Positions 32,596 to 36,338 of a stretch of DNA of 64,000 nt are shown here, piece after piece (the first letter of the stretch is position 1; each line of letters opens with the position of its first letter). Under the pieces are notes generated by a model. The model was not told where the DNA came from. It made no database searches and saw only the letters and a list, made by a program, of their open reading frames with translations. A program made the translations under genes and the position numbers. The stretch is from Geothrix limicola (GTDB taxonomy: Bacteria > Acidobacteriota > Holophagae > Holophagales > Holophagaceae), in NCBI RefSeq assembly GCF_030268085.1, contig NZ_BSDE01000003.1:1-64000 (forward strand), given 5' to 3'.

Positions 32596-32859
32596 TCACT
32601 TCTCTTTGCGAAGGGCTGCCTGCACCTGGGCCTGTACTTGGGCGAGGGCGAGGGTCGCGGCTTCGGGGGCCTTCGCCGGCGCCGCGAGGGATCGCTTGGC
32701 CACGCCGGGCAGGGCTTCCAGGCCGCGCAGGAAGCCCGCGCACACGCGGCAGAGCAGGAGATGCAGCCAGATGCCGAGCCGCCTCCGCAGCGGCAGCGCG
32801 CCTTCCAGATACTCGGTGAGTTCGGTCTGGACGTCGTGGCAGGAGGGCAGGAGCTTCAT
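32596..32859 (-). CDS. Zinc-finger anti-sigma factor
   Basis: 87 residues starting at an ATG that overlaps the TGA of the sigma gene (ATGA). It has the anti-sigma zf-HC2 pattern: cysteine in SCHDVQTELTEYLEG near the start and HLLLCRVC (about residues 33-40), i.e. Cys...HxxxCxxC. Unlike many relatives it has no membrane helix, so it would be a soluble zinc- or redox-responsive anti-sigma factor. It should bind the ECF sigma factor encoded just upstream and release it on metal or thiol stress. Confidence 0.85.
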   Translation of the reverse strand: MKLLPSCHDVQTELTEYLEGALPLRRRLGIWLHLLLCRVCAGFLRGLEALPGVAKRSLAAPAKAPEAATLALAQVQAQVQAALRKEK

Positions 32860-33473
32860 GAGCGGCCTCCCAGGACATGGCTTCGCAGGCGCGCCTGAAG
32901 CAGCACCCGGGCGCGGTGGAGCCGCTGCCGGACGGTGCCTGGCGCCAGTTGGAGGTGGCGGGCGATGGCGTCGAGATCCCAGTCCTCCAGATCCTTCAGG
33001 ACGAAGACGATCCGCTGCGAATCCGGCAGCTCGTCCAGGGCCCGCAGCAGGCAGGCCCGCATCTCCTGCTTCTCCACCAGCGCGTGGGCCTGCGCCTCTT
33101 CCTGCCATTCGGGCAGGTGGTCCGTTTCCGTGTGGTGGCCGCGCTCATCAAAGGGCCCGAGGGCCAACGGCTCGGGGCGTTCCATGTCCTGGATCCGCAC
33201 CCGGCTGCGCCGCGTCATCAGGGCCGCGTTCAGGCAGATCTTGTAGCCCCAGCTGCTGAAGCGGCTGCGTCCCTCGAACCTGGGCAGATCGCGGTGCATG
33301 CTCATGAGCGCGTCCTGCAGCGCATCCTGGGCATCGGCCTCGTTGCCCAGGATGCGCTGGATCCCGTTGAAGAAGAGCGAGAGGTGGGGCTGCACGAGAC
33401 CGCCGAAGGCCTCCGAGTCGCCCTGGGCGGCCCGCTGGATCAGCTCCGGTTCTGCGAGAAGGGTTGCCGTCAT
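32856..33473 (-). CDS. ECF RNA polymerase sigma factor
   Basis: 205 residues with region 2 (DALQDALMSMHRDLPRFEGRS, about 50-70, followed by FSSWGYKICLNAAL) and region 4 (LPDSQRIVFVLKDLEDWD, then IARHLQLAPGTVRQRLHRAR). Regions 1.1 and 3 are absent, as in ECF factors. It is followed by its zinc-finger anti-sigma gene and preceded by YceI and the HvfC/HvfB/HvfA-like genes on the same strand. By analogy with other DUF692/DUF2063 operons run by ECF factors, it may drive this operon, but I could not identify its promoter. Confidence 0.92.
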   Translation of the reverse strand: MTATLLAEPELIQRAAQGDSEAFGGLVQPHLSLFFNGIQRILGNEADAQDALQDALMSMHRDLPRFEGRSRFSSWGYKICLNAALMTRRSRVRIQDMERPEPLALGPFDERGHHTETDHLPEWQEEAQAHALVEKQEMRACLLRALDELPDSQRIVFVLKDLEDWDLDAIARHLQLAPGTVRQRLHRARVLLQARLRSHVLGGRS

Positions 33474-33512
33474 GCCGCTGCCAGTGTCGGCGGCGGCCCC
33501 TTCCCCGGCAAG

Positions 33513-34136
33513 CTACTTCTTGGCGGGGGCCTTCTTCGAGGCGACGGGCGGCTTCATCGCGGCCTTGGGCTCTTCGAAGAAGCCCACCAGCAGGAGGTTC
33601 AGTTCCACCTGGCGCTTTAGGCTGATCTTGGCCGCCACGCTTTCGGCGCCGATGCCGTAGTCCAGGCGGTCCAGGGGCAGCATGGTTCGGTACGACCAGG
33701 TGCGCACGCCGGCGCCGTTCATGCCCTCGGCGGGCTCGAAGGAGAGGTCGAGGTCCTTGCTGACCCCGTGCATCTGAAGGGTGCCGTGGACCTTCACGCG
33801 GTCGCCCTCCTTGCGGACATCGCTGGAGGTGAAGGTGATCTTCGGATACTTGGCCACGTCGAAGAAATCCGCCGAGCGCAGGTGTTCGTCGCGGCTCTGG
33901 ATCGCCGTGTTGAGCGACTTCGCATCGATCTCGAGGCGCACCTTCGCACCCTCGAAGGTGGCCGGATCGCCCTGGATATCGGCCTTGTAGTGCGCGAAGC
34001 GGCCCGGCACGTCGAAGAGCAGAGTCGAAGCCTTGAAACCCAGCACCGTGTGGTTGTCGTCCACGCGGAAGACCTTGGTTTGGGCCATGAGGGTAGGAGC
34101 CAGCAGCAGGGCTGGCAGGAGGATGCGAAGGAGCAT
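33513..34136 (-). CDS. YceI-family periplasmic protein
   Basis: 207 residues with Sec signal peptide (LLRILLPALLLAPTLMAQ). The YceI lipocalin-like fold is shown by VDDNHTVLGFKASTLLFDVPGRF, KSLNTAIQSRDEHLRSADFFDVAKYPKITFTS (both segments split), VHGTLQMHGVSKDLDL and the closing LDYGIGAESVAAKISLKRQVELNL. YceI proteins bind isoprenoid lipids and are often co-located with redox or metal-stress genes. The C terminus has an odd Lys/Ala/Pro tail. It sits 14 bases after the hvfC-like gene, so it looks like part of that operon. Confidence 0.9.
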   Translation of the reverse strand: MLLRILLPALLLAPTLMAQTKVFRVDDNHTVLGFKASTLLFDVPGRFAHYKADIQGDPATFEGAKVRLEIDAKSLNTAIQSRDEHLRSADFFDVAKYPKITFTSSDVRKEGDRVKVHGTLQMHGVSKDLDLSFEPAEGMNGAGVRTWSYRTMLPLDRLDYGIGAESVAAKISLKRQVELNLLLVGFFEEPKAAMKPPVASKKAPAKK

Positions 34137-34150
34137 GGGGGCCTCTCGGG

Positions 34151-34957
34151 CTAGGTGGGGGTTTGGAATCCGGCGATGGCGCCGTCTCGATGCAGGTCTT
34201 TGAGCAGGGTCATCGCCGCGTCGGGGCCGGCCAGGCCCAGGGCCGCGGCCACCTCGCCAAGGGGCCGGTCCTGGGCCCGCACGAGGAGCGCCGCCGTGGC
34301 GGGGGTCAGCTCCAGGAGCCGGGCATCGCCATCAGCCAGGCGATAGGCGATGAGATGAGTGGGGCGGATTTCGGGCACCGGTGAGGCTTCGCTCGCGCGA
34401 TGCACCGCATGGGTGTAGGTCAGGATCTGGGTGGCCGGATCCAGGACGATGCAGTCTTCGGGCGTCGGTTCCGCGCGCAGGCCTTCGGGCCGAGCCGCAT
34501 CCGGAAACCGGGCGACGAGCACTTCCAGGATCTCGACGTGGGCCAGTTCGAGCAGGAAGGGCCAGCGGTCCTGGCCCCAGCGCGTGCTGGCCAGCCAGCC
34601 CAGGAAGGTGGGGGCGATGTCGCGGTACTGGCCGCTGCGGATGAGACGGGCCTCGAGGAAGGCCTGGACACAGGGCTCCCAGGCTCCGGCCGGTTCCAGC
34701 AGAGCCTTTGTCACAGGGAACATGGTTTCGAGAGGCTCGATGAGGCTGGCCCGGGCCAGCTCGCGGTAGGTGAGCATCGCTTCGGCCTGGTCCCGGAAGG
34801 CCTGCTGATCGGCGCCCGGAAGGGCCTGGCTCCGCGCGACGCGGCCGGGGTCGGCCTCGAGGGCGACCTCGTCCGCATCCAGGACCAGCGAGGCCATGGC
34901 GCGCTGCAGGCGGAGGGTTCTCGGTTCGGACCCGGATCCGGTCGTCGCTTCAGGCAT
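34151..34957 (-). CDS. hvfC: DUF2063 (HvfC/BufC-like) partner of the DUF692 enzyme
   Basis: 268 residues from the ATG at 34957, which overlaps the end of the hvfB-like gene by 8 bases. The N-terminal part (FRDQAEAMLTYRELARASLIEPLETMFPVTKALL, split) matches the DUF2063 'putative DNA-binding domain', with the typical RLIRSGQYRDIAPTFLGWL block. The C-terminal part has THLIAYRLADGDARLLELTPATAALL, typical of HvfC. In characterised HvfBC/BufBC pairs this protein recruits the precursor peptide and forms a complex with the DUF692 iron enzyme. A nucleic-acid role is not expected despite the family's name. Confidence 0.85.
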   Translation of the reverse strand: MPEATTGSGSEPRTLRLQRAMASLVLDADEVALEADPGRVARSQALPGADQQAFRDQAEAMLTYRELARASLIEPLETMFPVTKALLEPAGAWEPCVQAFLEARLIRSGQYRDIAPTFLGWLASTRWGQDRWPFLLELAHVEILEVLVARFPDAARPEGLRAEPTPEDCIVLDPATQILTYTHAVHRASEASPVPEIRPTHLIAYRLADGDARLLELTPATAALLVRAQDRPLGEVAAALGLAGPDAAMTLLKDLHRDGAIAGFQTPT

Positions 34958-35813
34958 GGCGGGCCTCCGCGGACGCCAAGGCTGCGTCGTAGGCCGCGTC
35001 GTAGGCGGCCTGGATCTGCGCCCGTTCGGCGAGGAGCGCATCGAGGTCGGGGATGTGGTTGTCCCGCTCCAGCAGCACGGGCACCGGGCGGCCGAGGCGC
35101 GCGAGGGTCCACTGCATCAGTTCGATGACGGGGTCGATGACGTCGGCGCCATGGGTATCGATGGTGAGGTTGCCGAATTTTTTGTGCCCCGCGATGTGCA
35201 TCTGGGAGACCCGGTCCAGGGGCATGCGGGACAGCCAGGCCTTGGGATCGAAGCCGAAGTTGAGCGCGTTGACGTAGACGTTGTTGATGTCCAGCAGCCA
35301 GCCCACGTCCGCGCCCTCCAGCACCGTGCTGATGAAGTCGGCCTCGTCCATGTCGGAAGCCCCCAGCTCGGCGTAGTAGGTGATGTTTTCCAGCAGCAGC
35401 GGCACGGGCAGCCGGGACTGCAGGTCCCGCGCGCGGGCGATGGTGTGGCGCGCGGCCTCCCGCGTGAAGGGGAGCGGCAGCAGTTCGTGCAGGCAGTTCG
35501 CGTCCACCCGGGTGAAGCAGAGGTGCTCGGAATGCCAGGGCGTGCCAGTGCGGAGGAGGAAGTCCCCCAGGTCCTGGAGGTAGGTCTCGTCCCAGGGATC
35601 GTAGCCACCCACGGACATGGTCAGTCCGTGGGTGAGCACCGGATCCCGATCGAGGATGGCGCAGGCCAGCCGGTGCTGGCGGCCCCCGTCCCCAACCACG
35701 TTCTCAGGACAGGTTTCCCAGAAGGGTACGCCGTGGCCTTCCCTCCGTGCGACCTCTTCGAGGTGCGGACGGCGCAGCCCGAGGCCGACGCCGTGGAAAC
35801 GGTCCTGAGTCAC
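34950..35813 (-). CDS. hvfB: DUF692 multinuclear non-heme iron oxygenase (HvfB/BufB-like)
   Basis: 287-residue TIM-barrel enzyme. MNIO-family blocks are intact: GVGLGLRRPH, ETCPEN, THGLTMSVGG, WHSEHLCF, LLENITYY, LLDINNVYVN, MHIAGH and DTHGADV, containing the expected His/Asp/Glu iron ligands. Family members convert peptide cysteines to thiooxazole or oxazolone-thioamide groups that bind copper. The Cys-repeat peptide encoded directly upstream is the obvious substrate. The start is GTG; its GGAGG overlaps the TAG stop of hvfA, so the two are translationally coupled. The exact modification here is inference. Confidence 0.92.
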   Translation of the reverse strand: MTQDRFHGVGLGLRRPHLEEVARREGHGVPFWETCPENVVGDGGRQHRLACAILDRDPVLTHGLTMSVGGYDPWDETYLQDLGDFLLRTGTPWHSEHLCFTRVDANCLHELLPLPFTREAARHTIARARDLQSRLPVPLLLENITYYAELGASDMDEADFISTVLEGADVGWLLDINNVYVNALNFGFDPKAWLSRMPLDRVSQMHIAGHKKFGNLTIDTHGADVIDPVIELMQWTLARLGRPVPVLLERDNHIPDLDALLAERAQIQAAYDAAYDAALASAEARHA

Positions 35814-35822
35814 GGCAGCCTC

Positions 35823-36176
35823 CTACGACTTCTTGTCCTTGCCGCAGGAGCCTTCCTTCTTGTCCTTCCCGCAGCTGCCGTCCTTCTTGTCCTTCCCGCA
35901 GGAACCGTCCTTCTTCATCTTCTTGTCCTTGCTGCCGCAGGAACCCTTGCCGCAGGAACCGTCCTTGGACTTGGCATCCTTCGCCTTCGCCTTGGCGGGG
36001 GCCTTGCCCTCCTCCTTTGCGTCCTTGGCATCCTTGGTACCGCATCCACCGGCCTGGCTGAGGGCGGCCTCGCTTCCGAAGGCGTCGACGGGGGTGGCGC
36101 CGAGGGTGGGGGAGCCCGCGGCCGTCAGGGACCCGGCGGCGAAGAGGGTGGCGGCACCGATGAGCTTCGTGATCAT
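35823..36176 (-). CDS. hvfA: HvfA-like exported Cys-repeat precursor peptide (copper-binding RiPP candidate)
   Basis: 117 residues from the ATG at 36176 with GGAGG upstream. A Sec-type signal (ITKLIGAATLFAAGSLTAAG) is followed by a spacer and a Lys/Asp-rich tail carrying five GSCG units (DGSCG, KGSCG, DGSCG, DGSCG, EGSCG), most followed by KDKK; one more cysteine lies in GGCGTK. Characterised HvfA peptides have EGKCG repeats whose cysteines are modified by HvfB-HvfC. Here lysine is replaced by serine in every unit. Expected role: periplasmic copper chelator or buffer. The operon order hvfA-hvfB-hvfC is conserved. Confidence 0.85.
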   Translation of the reverse strand: MITKLIGAATLFAAGSLTAAGSPTLGATPVDAFGSEAALSQAGGCGTKDAKDAKEEGKAPAKAKAKDAKSKDGSCGKGSCGSKDKKMKKDGSCGKDKKDGSCGKDKKEGSCGKDKKS

Positions 36177-36338
36177 GAATCCTCCATGCGGACAGAGCCG
36201 CGGCGGGGGGCGCACGGCGACCCCACGTGTGATGGAACGCGACCCGATCCCCCCGATTTGGAGGAGCGATCGAGACCGTGTTGCTGTTCCTAACCCTTGG
36301 GGTGCGGGTTCATCGAGCTTTGTGACATTTTTTTATGT
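36177..36338. other. Upstream region of the hvf-like operon
   Basis: 162 bases without a gene. It must hold the promoter of the hvf-like operon on the minus strand. No standard sigma-70 promoter stands out and I could not place an ECF promoter with confidence. A small inverted repeat GACAT-N6-ATGTC lies at its right end, just past the DCC gene stop, and may act as a weak terminator. Confidence 0.4.

Follow-up and report, generated by a model that had tools for sequence, protein, structure and literature searches.

A six-gene operon of Geothrix limicola, a species from a genus of soil and sediment bacteria, is best explained as a whole as a stress-induced copper-buffering RiPP operon under the control of its own ECF sigma factor and ZAS anti-sigma factor, a reading that was given a probability of roughly 0.6. 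The operon was found in a window of 64,000 nucleotides, which is the entire stretch of DNA that was analyzed, and is preceded by a promoter-like element and a probable structured leader. The features are as follows.

36301..36327, minus strand: promoter-like element TGTCACA-N15-GCACC, 5' of bufA, from a genus-wide pattern match
36174..36231, minus strand: probable two-hairpin leader, 5' of bufA, with hairpins at 36224-36206 and 36201-36188, from compensatory changes and a covariance model
35823..36176, minus strand: bufA/hvfA-like precursor, 117 aa with 6 Cys and GSCG repeats, from the open reading frame and its homologues
34950..35813, minus strand: bufB/hvfB-like MNIO (DUF692) enzyme with a GTG start, PF05114 at 291 bits
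34151..34957, minus strand: bufC/hvfC-like partner, DUF2063 plus NGO1945_C, PME1/RRE type, PF09836 and PF22106
33513..34136, minus strand: YceI, a predicted periplasmic lipocalin-like protein, PF04264 at 115 bits
32856..33473, minus strand: ECF sigma factor, 205 aa, Sigma70_r2 and r4_2
32596..32859, minus strand: ZAS-only soluble zinc anti-sigma factor, 87 aa, C-x25-H-x3-C-x2-C

All six genes were intact, and the gaps between them from precursor to anti-sigma gene (36176-32596) were 9, -8, 14, 39, and -4 bp, with bufC and bufB overlapping by 8 bp; this spacing fits a single transcription unit. The initial annotation had described six genes on one strand, including a soluble zinc-finger anti-sigma factor, and this was confirmed by open reading frames and profile matches. 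Genes for a DCC-type protein and a GDT1 transporter lie 5' of the operon in the same direction, and a convergent phosphoesterase gene lies 3' of it. There is no copper gene among the operon's six genes, a point against the copper-buffering reading.

The product of bufB matched PF05114 over its full length (E 9e-87), and BufC scored above the cut-offs for both PF09836 and PF22106. An MNIO of the PF05114 superfamily thus precedes a DUF2063/PME1 partner, as in the oxazolin/captophorin operons. The residues N177, D219, and H221 of BufB align with N175, D242, and H244 of HvfB, which are required for its activity (PMC13419390), and the iron site is conserved. The Hvf/Buf-like class proposed in the initial annotation was upheld by homology and by the conserved six-gene order, but not at the level of the strict equivalogs, since BufB scored 262 bits against the HvfB cut-off of 360 and also fell below the BufB equivalog cut-off in NCBIfam, and BufC scored 97.6 bits against the HvfC cut-off of 142. 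Assignment to the oxazolin/bufferin kind of copper-peptide operon is considered highly probable. Terminal oxidases are encoded in the genome, which makes the use of O2 plausible, and the apparent conflict between an O2-dependent enzyme and a reputedly anaerobic host was therefore dropped as an objection.

The precursor carries a Sec-like signal peptide, as judged by eye, and had no match in Pfam or NCBIfam; with no Pfam match it does not qualify as a DUF2282 precursor of the Buf1 bufferin type, which has four conserved Cys. Homologues at 36 loci share the same start, a signal-like N-terminus, and Cys-Gly repeats. Gly directly follows Cys at 190 of the 196 cysteines in these homologues, and the commonest contexts in the 36 precursors were DGSCG, KGSCG, and EGSCG; the repeat is of the type [DE]GSCG. 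The EGKCG repeat occurred in none of the 36. This absence, together with the failure of BufB to reach either the HvfB or the BufB equivalog cut-off, might suggest that the GSCG repeats receive a modification other than 5-thiooxazole or are left as plain thiols. Such an outcome is thought improbable, because in a published scan FonBC tolerated only Gly or Ala directly after Cys but accepted Ala, Thr, or Arg in place of Lys before it (PMC13097082), which makes GSCG a plausible substrate; DGKCG/HKCG repeats were also present in the divergent homologues L178 and L182. By analogy, the modification of the Geothrix peptide would be a thiol chemistry.

Copper is the likely ligand of the peptide, again by analogy, as the biochemically studied 5-thiooxazole peptides of the MNIO-PME1 type bind copper (PMC13097082, PMC13419390). 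These peptides weigh against a product that serves mainly for another thiophilic metal (gold, zinc, or cadmium) or for oxidative or redox stress, which is regarded as unlikely even though chromate and cadmium trigger a SigF response in Caulobacter (PMC3511200), mercury proteins form fusions with some bufferins (PMC12452194), and ZAS domains respond to oxidation (PMC6432622).

Conservation of the operon was examined in 37 Geothrix genomes, including that of G. limicola, and an MNIO was present in 26 of them. The initial annotation had suggested a search for the same six-gene order in relatives. The full order, including a separately confirmed bufC in L058, was present in 13 of the 26 MNIO-bearing genomes, and in most of these it could be seen to lie between GDT1/DCC and the phosphoesterase. 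The order was also present in L165, L169, and the divergent acidobacterial MAG L179, where the entire set lies at a different genomic site. This recurrence at two sites argues that the layout is selected and is not an accident. Three of the 26 genomes carry bufABC-yceI at the same site without the ECF and anti-sigma genes, and bufABC without YceI or ECF was found in 10 (bufABC alone at other sites in six, and a more distant bufABC with 63-65% BufB identity in four). The Geothrix-like MAG L177 lacks only YceI. The named isolates identified among the relatives, with G. terrae and G. paludis as examples, lack the sigma/anti-sigma pair. In a BufB tree L179 adjoins the main Geothrix clade, but this placement is weakly supported (86/64); it is compatible with, though no proof of, an ancestor that had all six genes and descendants that lost some of them. 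One genome (G004) has, in addition to the six-gene operon, another copy of bufAB at the end of a contig (L061, G004:C28:1-860), in which TGTAACA replaces TGTCACA.

The element YGTCACA-N15-GCACC was first spotted by eye and then tested by a genus-wide pattern search. There were 37 exact matches, 23 of them before bufA, compared with 25 for a reversed-pattern control; the 14 matches elsewhere are thus no more than expected by chance, and the element in the genus is essentially exclusive to bufA. A second exact match in the G. limicola genome (C1:1312126) was rejected as a real site for the same reason. At loci outside the discovery set, L173 and L182 had exact matches, L177 had the variant TGTAACA, L179 had CGTCACG-N15-GCATC, and L186, which has no ECF gene, differed by one change (CGTCACA-N15-TCACC). 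The alignment held little information between the two blocks and showed an A-rich tract 5' of the first block, the block columns being partly selected by the search pattern. Promoters of ECF41 have the form TGTCACA-n16-CGTC (PMC3426412), so that the -35 sequence is the same and the spacer similar, but the -10 sequence differs (GCACC versus CGTC).

The same element, with the same spacing, stands before bufA across the genus, with or without a local ECF gene, and at the same and other sites. The 'own ECF sigma factor' of the initial annotation is present as a gene of the operon but may not be its regulator, or at least not the only one, since the element persists in the roughly half of the species that lack a local sigma factor. 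The local pair cannot be the sole reader of the element: in the ECF-less species at least one further factor must recognize it, unless it does not serve a sigma factor at all. A search of ECF-less genomes for an orthologue of the local ECF returned only a paralogue of 51-55% identity.

Both Sigma70_r2 and r4_2 were above cut-off in the local ECF, which is a paralogue, at 48-55% identity, of a core Geothrix ECF; the two form one clade among the sampled sequences. The anti-sigma factor fell below the cut-offs for zf-HC2 (17 bits versus 22.2) and for the NCBIfam antisigmaE model (39 versus 50 bits), and its zinc ligands, C-x25-H-x3-C-x2-C, were invariant in 12 aligned proteins and agree with the ZAS pattern H/C-x25-H-x3-C-x2-C. 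No transmembrane segment was seen by eye in its 87 residues, and so the operon has an ECF without an anti-sigma factor of the membrane NrsF kind. It shares 37-40% identity with the N-terminal ZAS half of the core ChrR-like anti-sigma factor and lacks the C-terminal part. From these comparisons we infer that the local pair arose by duplication of the core ECF/ChrR-like pair with loss of the sensor domain. The core operon itself (L124 4359-7013, G000:C8) encodes a histidine kinase, the ECF sigma factor, and the ChrR-like anti-sigma factor with ZAS and cupin domains, and its genes overlap.

These observations bear on a competing explanation, that the bufA promoter answers to another sigma factor or a DNA-binding regulator whose gene lies outside the operon and which is common to the bufABC-bearing Geothrix. 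The local ECF-ZAS pair would then not be the primary switch but an added amplifier or an insulated duplicate. Retention of the element in ECF-less species, including L186 with its one change, speaks for this explanation, as does the paralogy of the local pair to a core pair found in all Geothrix searched. The core ECF would be the obvious reader, but its candidacy was weakened, since MNIO-less Geothrix have it too and not even a degenerate form of the element is present at its own loci. In addition, half of the species retain the local pair within the operon, as does L179 at its different site, and this retention suggests a role in cis. A reader encoded elsewhere is accordingly a credible but less favored possibility, and the chances that the local ECF controls the operon are put at about even.

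Two GC-rich hairpins lie directly 5' of the Shine-Dalgarno sequence and start codon of bufA. In 29 leaders, 92% of cells could pair, compared with 44-52% in slid controls, and both-sided changes were found in five pairs, against a shuffle mean of 2.4. With a covariance model, leaders of bufA were recovered at E values from 5e-9 to 5e-21, as were, outside the training set, the leader of L182 (5e-4) and that of a radical-SAM variant in G008 (3e-6). The model's match in G012:C37 falls within a transporter gene and was dismissed as chance. The Rfam search of the leader returned no family, and its one weak match, to Xoo5 on the opposite strand, was likewise put down to chance. Folded as a single sequence, the G. 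limicola leader was no more stable than shuffles (z -0.68), so that support for the hairpins is comparative only. The sequences are closely related and rich in GC, and the core of the second helix is invariant, so that the structure is rated no higher than probable; it may protect the mRNA or control translation.

The YceI protein matched PF04264 (E 4e-33), carries a signal peptide as judged by eye, and has polyisoprenoid-binding YceI proteins as its relatives in the PDB. In Geothrix yceI follows the partner gene. YceI is also encoded 3' of the MNIO gene at three individual Melainabacteria loci (L219, L222, L239), and at two in Myxococcus (L210, L218) its gene lies 5' of those for a precursor of the GSCG type and an MNIO. 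Text searches of the literature found no link between YceI and MNIOs, and YceI does not appear in the main text of one survey (PMC12452194). Pairs of ECF and ZAS genes likewise adjoin MNIO genes outside the Acidobacteriota: in one MAG of the Deltaproteobacteria (L202), in a gammaproteobacterial MAG (L232), where the arrangement is antiparallel, and in a verrucomicrobial MAG (L231). In L231 the ECF and the zinc protein, which has no Pfam match, are encoded between precursor and MNIO; the row at L231 4000-6800 reads DoxX-like protein, GCKGKD-repeat precursor, ECF, zinc-type anti-sigma factor, and MNIO. A more speculative proposal, which we hold only tentatively, is that YceI is a genuine, unnoticed partner of the GSCG copper-peptide system in several phyla, and that the Geothrix operon acquired, at a promoter already read by another factor, a duplicate of an ECF-ZAS pair that had lost its cupin sensor. 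If true, the operon would show a metal-peptide pathway gaining and losing a private sigma switch within one genus.

Several other MNIO loci were recorded. In Geothrix fermentans (L048, G008:C1, 4119-8089) a second cluster, which may be a hybrid RiPP pathway, encodes a GSCG precursor, a radical SAM/SPASM enzyme, an MNIO, a DUF2063 partner, and YceI; it has the two-hairpin leader but not the promoter element. In another family of the class (L032 3946-7640, L060 3514-7414, and L031), a ferritin-like protein (PF12902 in L032) with a Cys-rich tail is encoded ahead of an MNIO and a partner-like gene and is a candidate large protein substrate. At L062 5201-6865 an MNIO adjoins a Cys-containing peptide of 60 aa that lacks a signal sequence and a small protein that had no Pfam match, an unusual RiPP-like pair.

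In the favored mechanism, the modification, the copper ligand, the trigger, the match of sigma factor to promoter, and the role of YceI are the parts that we infer. BufC would recognize the precursor, and BufB, using iron and O2, would oxidize the GSCG cysteines, most likely to 5-thiooxazoles. The peptide would be exported by Sec and would bind excess copper in the periplasm, where YceI may act as an accessory protein in the place that DoxX holds in related operons. The ZAS anti-sigma factor would hold the ECF sigma factor until metal or oxidant stress displaced its zinc or oxidized its thiols, and the freed sigma factor would then transcribe the operon, its own gene included, from TGTCACA-N15-GCACC. 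The gene content, the conserved order, the iron- and zinc-site residues, and the element on which this scheme is built are established by sequence.

Chemically, the operon most likely belongs with the oxazolin, bufferin, and captophorin operons, whose core pathway is already known. It shares with oxazolin/HvfABCX of Haemophilus influenzae and the fontiphorin/gonophorin captophorins (PMC13097082, PMC13419390) the order of precursor, MNIO, and DUF2063 genes, the iron-site residues, and Sec-exported Cys-Gly repeats, and differs from them in having GSCG and not EGKCG repeats, YceI and no DoxX, an ECF/ZAS pair within the operon, and a host in the Acidobacteriota. An MNIO-DUF2063 operon linked to an ECF sigma/anti-sigma pair is shared with Buf1 bufferins, Caulobacter SigF-NrsF, and Cupriavidus gig-rpoQ-rsqA (PMC12452194, PMC3511200, PMC10304878); in Caulobacter, SigF drives DUF2282-DUF692-DUF2063-DoxX (PMC3511200), and sigma/NrsF genes are reported in Buf1 but not Buf2 clusters (PMC12452194). 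Metal induction is a feature of those clusters and would be shared by the Geothrix operon. Their precursors are DUF2282 proteins or, for GigP, another 4-Cys peptide, in place of a GSCG-repeat precursor. The anti-sigma factors of the Caulobacter and Cupriavidus systems are membrane proteins (NrsF, and RsqA as predicted; PMC3511200, PMC10304878) and not a soluble ZAS domain, and their sigma genes form a separate unit, whereas the Geothrix pair closes the operon. With anti-sigma factors of the ChrR/RsrA type the Geothrix protein shares the ZAS domain and x25-H-x3-C-x2-C, but its first ligand is Cys and it has no C-terminal cupin-like sensor domain; the 205-aa ECF lacks the C-terminal extension of ECF41.

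The initial annotation had singled out the built-in sigma/anti-sigma pair together with YceI as a notable layout. The pair does stand in a conserved operon, but sigma linkage by itself is not new, as the Buf1, gig, and SigF clusters already have it. What distinguishes the Geothrix operon from these published clusters is the soluble ZAS anti-sigma factor, the GSCG repeat, and YceI, and this combination of peptide type, sigma switch, and YceI partner was not found described in the literature. New here are the bufA element, its persistence without the local pair, the probable two-hairpin leader, and the finding that YceI and ECF-ZAS pairs adjoin MNIO genes outside the Acidobacteriota as well. Copper-peptide (captophorin/bufferin) operons are thereby extended to a repeat type and a phylum for which no biochemical data were found, and the YceI family, which is widespread but little understood in its function, is tentatively linked to metal-peptide maturation. 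Geothrix offers a natural experiment within one genus, in which the same promoter element occurs with and without a local sigma/anti-sigma pair.
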